64,000 nucleotides of DNA, taken from the NCBI GenBank assembly GCA_949297125.1, contig CASFRS010000023.1, forward strand, positions 1 to 64,000. The letters are read 5' to 3'. The position numbers and the translations under genes are program-made. Below the pieces are notes generated by a model, which was not told where the DNA came from, ran no database searches, and was given only the letters and a program-made list of their open reading frames with translations. Positions 170-7,790 of this stretch are shown one piece after another. The DNA is from an uncultured Bacteroidales bacterium. Lineage in GTDB: Bacteria > Bacteroidota > Bacteroidia > Bacteroidales > G3-4614. Numbering within the stretch: position 1 is the first letter of the stretch; every line of letters begins with the position of its first letter.

Positions 170-391
170 CTAATATTCTTCCTCGTTGAAGAAGAAGTCT
201 TCTTTGGTGGGGTAATCGGGCCATATGTCTTCTATGCACTCGTATATTTCGCCCTCGTCTTCTATCTCCTGCAAATTTTCAATTACTTCCAACGGTGCGC
301 CAGAACGCATGGCGTAATCTATCAACTCGTCTTTTGTTGCCGGCCACGGAGCATCTTCGAGTTTCGAGGCCAATTCTAATGTCCAATACAT
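170..391 (-). CDS. DUF2795 family small protein
   Basis: This 73-residue acidic protein (start MYWTLELASKLED, then PWPATKDELIDYA, ending EEEY) matches my memory of the short DUF2795 proteins that are widespread and highly conserved in Bacteroidetes. Their function is unknown to me. The first half looks like a compact helical domain and the tail is rich in Asp and Glu. There is no signal peptide or membrane segment, so it is probably cytoplasmic. It starts with ATG at 391. A possible -7 box on the minus strand (TAAATTTG, 458-465) lies upstream, and a clear terminator lies downstream, so it seems to be a single-gene transcript. Confidence 0.85.
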   Translation of the reverse strand: MYWTLELASKLEDAPWPATKDELIDYAMRSGAPLEVIENLQEIEDEGEIYECIEDIWPDYPTKEDFFFNEEEY

Positions 392-660: not shown

Positions 661-1200
661 CTATCCTTCCCAGAATGTCTCTTCGCATCCTGCCGAGTAG
701 TTGCACATGCGCGAAAGTACAAAGAAATAGTCGGACAACCTATTTATAAACGCTATCTCTTCTGCTCCCACCTTGCTCACTTCGTCCAGACGGCAGATGT
801 TGCGTTCTGCCCTGCGGGCTACCGTCCGGCAGATATGTGCCTTGCATGCGGCTGCTGTCCCGCCTGGCAGGATAAACTTGTTGTGCCGGGGGAGGACGGC
901 CTCTATTGCGTCTATGCGTTTTTCTATTTTCGCAATGTCCGCGGCGGTTATACCGGGCAGTTCAATATTGCAGTCTTCATTGCAGGCAAGTTTCGAGCCT
1001 GCCACAAACAGTTTGTCCTGTATGAATACCAACAGGGCCCGGTCCTCACCGTCGGATACCGCACCGAGCAAATCGCCTATAAAGGCATTCAGTTCATCTA
1101 CCGTCCCGTAGGCTTCCAGCCGCACATCGTTTTTCGGTACACGCTTGCCTCCTACCAACGACGTTGTTCCGGCATCGCCGGTTTTCGTGTATATCTTCAT
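661..1200 (-). CDS. PduO-type cob(I)yrinic acid a,c-diamide adenosyltransferase
   Basis: The 179-residue protein opens with MKIYTKTGDAGTTSLVGG, the ATP-binding signature of PduO/ATR-type adenosyltransferases, followed by YGTVDELNA. The C-terminal half carries RTVARRAER, the conserved Arg-rich helix of this trimeric family. The enzyme moves the 5'-deoxyadenosyl group of ATP to reduced cobalamin to give adenosylcobalamin. Full length and no signal peptide point to a cytosolic enzyme. The start codon is 7 bases after the stop of the upstream methyltransferase, so the two form one leftward operon driven from the repeat/promoter array at 1.9-2.4 kb. Family assignment is secure; the exact substrate (cobalamin or a precursor) cannot be seen from sequence. 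Confidence 0.93.
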   Translation of the reverse strand: MKIYTKTGDAGTTSLVGGKRVPKNDVRLEAYGTVDELNAFIGDLLGAVSDGEDRALLVFIQDKLFVAGSKLACNEDCNIELPGITAADIAKIEKRIDAIEAVLPRHNKFILPGGTAAACKAHICRTVARRAERNICRLDEVSKVGAEEIAFINRLSDYFFVLSRMCNYSAGCEETFWEG

Positions 1201-1207
1201 CTCTTTT

Positions 1208-1918
1208 CTAAAATGATTCCTTGTAACGTTCCTTGTTTAGTTTGGGCGATGCTATAAAAAGCGCAATATCGTACATATCCATAAAGACCTTTATCTTGTC
1301 GTTCCGCGCCAGCCTGCAGAACAGATTGTATATCTCCCCGGTCTTGTGCATGCCCTCTGCCATAATAAACGTATTGTCGGATACATATGGTTCTATGGCC
1401 GCAAAAATTTTCCTGTATTCTTCGGCATCGGAATGTTCCCTTACATAGATGAACCCGGGAGGGGGCGCGCTTTGGCAACTTGCCGGTATCTCTTCGGCAT
1501 AGCCACCGCAACGTATGTCTGTCCTGCCGTGCACAGGCAGGTAAGCCCTGCGCTGTGCGTCTGCCTCCACAGTCGTTATTCTGGCTTCGGGCGGGGCGGC
1601 AAGTTCAATCGCCATGGTGGAAACCCCGAACGATGTTCCGCACTCCAGTATCGAAAGGGGTTTGAATCGGTTTATTATCCTGAACAACAGTGTCGCATTC
1701 TTGAACGGTATCAACTGATGACGCCCTTTGGCATCGGCCGAGAACTTTACCGCGTCGCGTTTCCTTTTTATTTCATCATACGCGTAATACGCCGCGTCTT
1801 CTTCTATTACGCGCGTTATCAACGTATATACAAACGGCGAATGCACACCGTGGCCTTTACGGTGAGATATGCGACGGTATCCCTTTACACAATATTTTTT
1901 TACCGATATTATTGACAT
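1208..1918 (-). CDS. Class I SAM-dependent methyltransferase-like protein
   Basis: I start this gene at the ATG at 1918 (MSIISVKKYCVKGYRRIS), giving 236 residues. The open frame runs much further upstream, but only through the 81-bp repeats. The N-terminal part has HGVHSPFVYTLI, a motif I know from Bacteroidetes proteins annotated as class I methyltransferases. Around residues 85-115 the segment ILECGTSFGVSTMAIELA fits the glycine-rich SAM-binding motif I, and ITTVEAD fits motif II with its acidic residue. The substrate is unknown. It is the first gene of a two-gene operon with the adenosyltransferase. The nearest -7 box (1932-1939) lies only 13 bases before the ATG, so that transcript would be almost leaderless. 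Confidence 0.75.
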   Translation of the reverse strand: MSIISVKKYCVKGYRRISHRKGHGVHSPFVYTLITRVIEEDAAYYAYDEIKRKRDAVKFSADAKGRHQLIPFKNATLLFRIINRFKPLSILECGTSFGVSTMAIELAAPPEARITTVEADAQRRAYLPVHGRTDIRCGGYAEEIPASCQSAPPPGFIYVREHSDAEEYRKIFAAIEPYVSDNTFIMAEGMHKTGEIYNLFCRLARNDKIKVFMDMYDIALFIASPKLNKERYKESF

Positions 1919-1931
1919 GCTGTCCTCTGGA

Positions 1932-2367
1932 CAAAAATAATGCAAACGAGGGCAGAGGCAAACCTTGCAGGTTTGATTATGCCGAGTGCAGCTTATTTTC
2001 GCCGTTCTACGGCAAAGATAATGCAAACGAGGGCAGAGGCAAACCTTGCAGGTTTGATTATGCCGAGTGCAGCTTATTTTCGCCGTTCTACGGCAAAGAT
2101 AATGCAAACGAGGGCAGAAGCAAACCTTGCAGGTTCTGCTATGCCGAGTGCTGCTTATTTTCGCCGTTCTTCGGCAAAGATAATGCAAACGAGGGCAGAA
2201 GCAAACCTTGCAGGTTCTGCTATGCCGAGTGCTGCTTGTTTTCGCTGCTTTGCAGCAAAGATAATGCAAACGAGGGCAGAGGCAATCCTTGCAGGTTCGG
2301 CTATGCCGAGTGCAGCTTATTTTCGCCGTTCTTCGGCAAAGATAATGCAAACGAGGAGGGTAGCAAA
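1932..2367 (-). promoter_or_regulatory. Array of six Bacteroidales-type promoters facing left
   Basis: On the minus strand every repeat junction carries a -7 box of the form TATCTTTG (ends at 2020, 2101, 2182, 2263, 2344; TATTTTTG at 1932-1939). In each case the -33 site lies exactly 19 bases upstream: TTTG at 1959-1962, 2040-2043, 2121-2124, 2202-2205 and 2364-2367, and ATTG at 2283-2286. This is the established consensus for the primary sigma factor of Bacteroidetes. All six point at the methyltransferase/adenosyltransferase operon. Whether all are active is inference. Confidence 0.75.
1939..2343. repeat. Five 81-bp direct tandem repeats plus a partial sixth
   Basis: Copies begin at 1939, 2020, 2101, 2182 and 2263, each with AATGCAAACGAGGGCAGA, and a partial sixth copy begins at 2344. 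The spacing is exactly 81 bases every time and the copies differ by only a few bases. Because 81 is a multiple of three and the unit lacks stops in several frames, the array creates spurious open frames on both strands. I recall similar AAAGATAATGCAAACGAG-type repeats in many Bacteroidales genomes, but I cannot verify that here. Confidence 0.95.

Positions 2368-2922: not shown

Positions 2923-7790
<4,868 letters not shown>

Follow-up and report, generated by a model that had tools for sequence, protein, structure and literature searches.

A tandem promoter array in a gut Bacteroidales genome belongs to a dispersed hairpin repeat that probably inserts at -7 boxes and rebuilds the promoter

The stretch of DNA considered here (the window, 64,000 nucleotides of contig C23 of an uncultured Bacteroidales genome, G000) carries on its minus strand, at 1932-2367, five units at exactly 81-bp spacing together with six promoter-like sites, upstream of two genes (Table 1). 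Of the methyltransferase-cobalamin adenosyltransferase operon named in the initial annotation, the second gene is borne out by its Pfam domain; the first, whose ATG (1916-1918) lies 13-14 nt from the -7 box of unit 1, finds no such match and reads, from its sequence, like a class I methyltransferase. The corresponding locus of the congener G003 (L089) has no array and a single TATCTTTG box before the orthologue of the methyltransferase-like ORF. The neighborhood also includes a small DUF2795 protein (170-391, minus strand) downstream of the adenosyltransferase gene, and a large beta-galactosidase (GH2) with GEVED and secretion-tail domains (2923-7716, minus strand), which is probably exported via the type IX system.

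Table 1. Array features and downstream genes in the window
Feature	Coordinates	Strand	Details
Cobalamin adenosyltransferase, second downstream gene	661..1200	-	PF01923, E 1.3e-54
Methyltransferase-like ORF, first downstream gene	1208..1918	-	no Pfam match
Unit 1 (gene-proximal)	1932..2012	-	-7 box TATTTTTG at 1932-1939, ends unit
Unit 2	2013..2093	-	-7 box TATCTTTG at 2013-2020
Unit 3	2094..2174	-	-7 box TATCTTTG at 2094-2101
Unit 4	2175..2255	-	-7 box TATCTTTG at 2175-2182
Unit 5	2256..2336	-	-7 box TATCTTTG at 2256-2263; -33 reads ATTG, not TTTG
Distal promoter-like site, TTTG-N19-TATCTTTG	2337..2367	-	far array end, directly upstream of first unit

The units had been described as five exact 81-bp copies; number and spacing stand, but pairwise identity ranges from 68 to 80 of 81 bases. 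Unit 2 matches unit 1 at 80 of 81 bases and shares 99% identity with a copy on contig C7, and the first hairpin of unit 4 shows a compensated stem (GCTGCAAAGCAGC). TRF calls the array at 1932-2356 with a period of 81, 5.2 copies and 93% matches. The pattern TTG-N19-TAnnTTTG recurs on the minus strand at 1932, 2013, 2094, 2175, 2256 and 2337, in keeping with the six consensus promoters of the initial annotation, except that the last box reads TATTTTTG and that the -33 element at 2256 departs from TTTG. Across the whole window, this pattern occurs 10 times against 0.57 expected from shuffles, and its stricter form, TTTG-N19-TAnnTTTG, 7 times against 0.20. The sites outside the array lie at 7760, 21490, 26967 and 53318; a claim that other promoters share the spacing agrees with those upstream of a lacZ-like gene (7760) and of tRNA-Lys (53318). 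The distal promoter looks like a partial unit or remnant. A coding repeat was considered and rejected: a period divisible by three, such as 81, leaves several frames of the array open, and other arrays, with spacings of 75-86 and decayed copies, argue against coding. The suggestion that the period fixes helical phase likewise fails, because, at 10.5 bp per turn, a period of 81 bp makes 7.71 turns, and the spacing in other arrays of this genome runs from 75 to 86 bp.

In the direction of the promoter, each unit opens with a -7 box, followed by a variable short hairpin (CTTTG..CGAAG) and then by a longer, imperfect one (GATAA..TGCA..CGGCA...TGC..CG..TGCATTATC); the inner 3' arm of the latter closes with the -33 TTTG, and CAYTATCTTTG terminates the unit. 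The gene-side end thereby combines the -33 TTTG that closes the main hairpin with TATCTTTG at -7, that is, TAnnTTTG at -7 and TTG or TTTG about 19-20 nt upstream, as in the sigma-ABfr consensus of Bacteroides (TAnnTTTG / TTTG; PMC7366714). Judged by this consensus, the gene-side end would act as a promoter. Units of the family measure about 70-100 bp and fall into subtypes that differ in loop and junction. Base-pair covariation shows that both hairpins are conserved: alignment A1 contains 66 two-sided compensatory cells against 25 in shuffles. Alignment A2 brings together 112 distinct units of numerous genera; here 26 of 29 pairs show changes in both partners, a count that leans towards structure because A2 was fitted to the model, and the covariation score is 0.246 compared with 0.090 for shuffled and at most 0.065 for slid alignments. 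Rfam holds no match for the unit, and only two tRNAs reach threshold in the window. Elsewhere in the genome (L048, G000:C8, ~3480-3520), a solo short hairpin, TATCTTTGCCGTAGAACGGCAAAGATA, stands before a gene without the long hairpin and is maybe a deletion remnant. Upstream of pepP in G301 and G300 (L292 and L293), a degenerate unit has its first hairpin, TACCTTTACACAAAGGTA, rematched to the local TACC box, which suggests that palindromes may be corrected between the element and its target box.

As judged from sequence matches, the window array is one representative of an extensive family of hairpin-forming repeats of ~80 bases in gut Bacteroidales. Within its own genome, 70 DNA matches to the unit are spread over about 40 places, and 80-bp units can be identical between unlinked loci. 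A covariance model built from 38 diverse units finds at least 104 matches there (unit 1 among them, at G000:C23:1932-2020 with 99.4 bits). Three congeners yield 44, 15 and 4 matches, and a Barnesiella yields 79. When 295 Bacteroidales genomes were surveyed under a strict filter, matches appeared in 30 genomes from 19 genera. Pattern scans of named genomes recovered it in Parabacteroides gordonii, Bacteroides cellulosilyticus, Paraprevotella clara, Mediterranea and Prevotella, as well as in Xylanibacter, Alistipes, Barnesiella and bins of Muribaculaceae and Dysgonomonadaceae, and a similar unit is present in one plasmid record and eight short faecal phage records. Several contigs of G000 end within unit arrays (C18:1-230, L033; C4:128250-128381, L039; C27:1-218, L025; C11:15041-15265, L030), and array lengths are therefore underestimated; one unit type is common to the start of C18 and the end of C4 and another to the start of C27 and the end of C11, and these contigs may be neighbors. 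We found no earlier description of the family in the open literature, which is what our search covered; one may exist in subscription journals or preprints.

The initial annotation had considered the array as a possible mobile promoter cassette, and copies lying at random with respect to gene starts would have spoken against this. No such randomness was seen. In the own genome, a gene start lies ahead of the promoter at 38 of 40 loci (at 9-450 nt), and the other two loci reach contig ends. Named genomes agree: 56 of 60 units have their next gene on the promoter strand, where 54% would be expected (p 4e-11), and a simple ORF caller puts the median distance from box to ATG at 26 nt. The genes concerned have no common function; by sequence resemblance, the invaded promoters of the own genome include those of the housekeeping genes dnaX, guaA, panB, thrA and ftsB. 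One unit (L161, G114:C18) is located directly upstream of a tRNA-like gene, and the unit promoter may also serve RNA genes. Of 38 gene-side ends, 12 no longer read TAnnTTTG.

Where do the units insert? Orthologous upstream regions were taken from congeners, and the left edge of the unit was located by alignment of the flanks (L010 was excluded). At seven of the eight informative sites of the own genome, the insertion falls exactly at a pre-existing -7 box. The left edge coincides with the box of the empty G003 site at L012, L013, L022, L036 and L038 (TATCTTTG) and at L016 (TATCTTCG), and at L028 the empty G003 site reads, by eye, TATATTTG at the junction; L037, L042 and L044 present a similar picture with weaker flanks. 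The exception is L026, where the unit is found ~44 nt downstream of a conserved native -7 box, so that not every insertion lands on such a box. The G003 site of L013 retains a hairpin-1-like remnant and thus may not be cleanly empty. The same arrangement is seen at argS in a second genus, where four congeners have one TACCTTTG and G210 reads TACCTTTG-element-TATCTTTG before the same downstream sequence. In these comparisons, the unit lies exactly between the native box, which is retained, and the native sequence formerly next to it. The native box therefore ends up distal to the unit, whose own box is turned towards the gene, and a new putative promoter takes the place of the old one. Consistently, far-side boxes vary (12 of 34 single units do not have TATCTTTG, a count that leaves out boxes outside TAnnTTTG and in which the search pattern itself partly determined the right box), and upstream flanks are unrelated. 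A box is thus present on both sides of the unit, and at argS the native TACCTTTG differs from the element's TATCTTTG; the shared CTTTG(C) may represent either a duplication or a common core. Filled and empty orthologous sites, as expected of a MITE or transposon, are both on record here, and with them the dispersed copies facing genes uphold the idea of a mobile cassette. In principle, the pairs could reflect precise deletions instead, and several empty outgroups count against this.

At L010, L021 and L035, a B-type array ends in TATCTTTG and is continued by an A-type unit, the arrangement expected from nested insertion. Among 30 internal boxes in arrays of the own genome, 15 are intact, mostly in A-type arrays including that of the window, and 15 are broken, all of them in B- and C-type arrays; C-type arrays have TATCTTTG as both outer boxes and TACTTTG at the internal junctions. 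Arrays of other genera likewise contain broken internal boxes. At least one -7 box is intact at 39 of the 40 own loci, often the far one only or the near one only, a pattern that fits selection for a working promoter and not for promoter number.

We read the unit as a REP/MITE-like mobile repeat that targets and restores core promoters: probably, it is a short, non-autonomous dispersed repeat found across Bacteroidales, which inserts at the -7 box and rebuilds the promoter. We envision that units move as DNA, probably via a folded single-strand or circular form, and that they recognize the -7 box. With a replacement promoter at the gene-side end, the invaded gene probably keeps being read; rebuilding would thus make insertion nearly harmless, and this would be why units survive. 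Tandem arrays might arise from nested insertion into the terminal -7 box combined with local duplication, and in the window such events could have led to six consecutive promoters for the methyltransferase and cobalamin adenosyltransferase genes. From a broader perspective, we lean, by a small degree, towards the view that the family represents an order-wide class of parasitic DNA that targets the core promoter: it would recognize the -7 box, conceivably through base pairing between CGAAGATA of the element and TATCTTTG, insert there and supply a new promoter to the gene, with housekeeping promoters being repeatedly overwritten by element-borne ones.

How might the box be recognized, and could the array be explained without mobility? 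A tyrosine recombinase might recombine small circles site-specifically at a TTTGC core, which would be one mechanism within our preferred explanation and which we regard as rather improbable, if conceivable. CTnDOT-type elements undergo site-specific recombination at the core GTANNTTTGC, and a crossover within the common (C)TTTGC would be compatible with the junctions at argS, with the native TACC on the left and the element's TATC on the right. However, no recombinase was linked to the unit, a simple reciprocal crossover does not give the outer TATCTTTG and inner TACTTTG of C-type arrays, and we found no paper with the core string in the open literature. A single-strand mechanism with the box as target or a TTTGC crossover would each fit argS, and neither fully fits the C-type arrays. 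Mobilization as a REP sequence by a RAYT (TnpA-REP, HUH Y1) transposase would account for a high-copy, intergenic and palindromic repeat with species-specific amplification, and enzymes of the IS200/605 type recognize hairpins and a short target beside a guide sequence (PMC6006769). Yet a profile check finds Y1 transposase (PF01797) neither in the own genome nor in 15 of 17 element-bearing genomes, and the missing enzyme largely refutes this most improbable of the alternatives. The Y1 transposase gene of G007 (L314, G007:C1, at ~1.2-2.5 kb in the locus) is flanked by copies of a different, unrelated repeat (GTCTGAAAGACAATGTTGAGCAAAGCGAAACTACG) and possibly forms a REPtron of its own. Moreover, the hairpin feet, as read by eye in alignment A1 only, are CTTTG/CGAAG and GATAA/TTATC, with no GT[AG]G tetranucleotide noted.

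Alternatively, an ordinary promoter may have been amplified by unequal crossing-over, so that promoter number sets the expression of the methyltransferase-cobalamin operon. That all six window promoters match the consensus and that units 1 and 2 are nearly identical, as expected from local duplication, would suit such a dose device, which had been proposed from the outset. It is nevertheless unlikely, and as a general role it is not supported: the unit is a genome-wide family rather than a local duplication, most loci have a single unit, the arrays of the own genome have half of their internal boxes broken, the damage being confined to subtypes other than that of the window, and arrays of other genera contain similar broken internal boxes. 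For the all-intact array of the window itself, a dosage function is possible. Finally, the hairpins could work in transcripts from the distal box, as a structured RNA leader or regulatory RNA. The strong covariation and the potential of the distal box to start transcripts through the unit speak for this, but the unit's own start site comes only after the hairpins, the -7 box forms part of hairpin 1 and would not be transcribed from that box, orthologues in congeners lack the unit, and neither Rfam nor the varied functions of the downstream genes offer support; we consider such an RNA quite unlikely.

If insertion at and restoration of -7 boxes is indeed what the family does, then many Bacteroidales promoters, including housekeeping promoters such as that of argS in the second genus, would not merely be inherited but would from time to time give way to those of a selfish element aimed at the -7 box, and it would be explained how insertion into a core promoter can be harmless. 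Promoter turnover in gut bacteria could then be studied on this family, which might also help to place defined promoters. Copies of the repeat will also turn up when Bacteroidales are surveyed for promoters or searched for RNA motifs.

Mobile promoters, as described for promoter propagation, are promoter sequences copied to many upstream regions and are generally defined by sequence sharing alone, whereas here the landing site itself is a promoter box, as shown by the empty sites. The gene-side end of the unit fits the -7 and -33 consensus of sigma-ABfr promoters (PMC7366714), and ordinary promoters of this kind are not described within a repeated two-hairpin element in the accessible part of that paper. 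REP, BIME and REPIN sequences with their RAYTs (PMC3733652, PMC6006769) resemble the family as short, high-copy, intergenic palindromic DNA that forms tandem clusters and is amplified differently between related species. The unit described here is much larger, has two hairpins and, by eye, no GT[AG]G tag; 15 of 17 genomes that bear it have no Y1 transposase, and it inserts at -7 boxes and carries a putative promoter. The BrickBuilt MITE of Porphyromonas gingivalis is also a dispersed Bacteroidales repeat with tandem units and promoter activity, the latter predicted from the consensus in our case; it comprises 23-bp repeats with IS5-like terminal inverted repeats in 19 copies and has bidirectional promoters (PMC4596501), and its matches are confined to P. 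gingivalis and P. gulae. In contrast, our family consists of hairpin units of 75-86 bp, extends across the order and has one orientation and a fixed insertion site at promoters; the period in the window is 81 rather than 23, and the unit sequence differs from the published BrickBuilt ends. Thus, neither REP/RAYT nor BrickBuilt has the architecture or the target of the unit.
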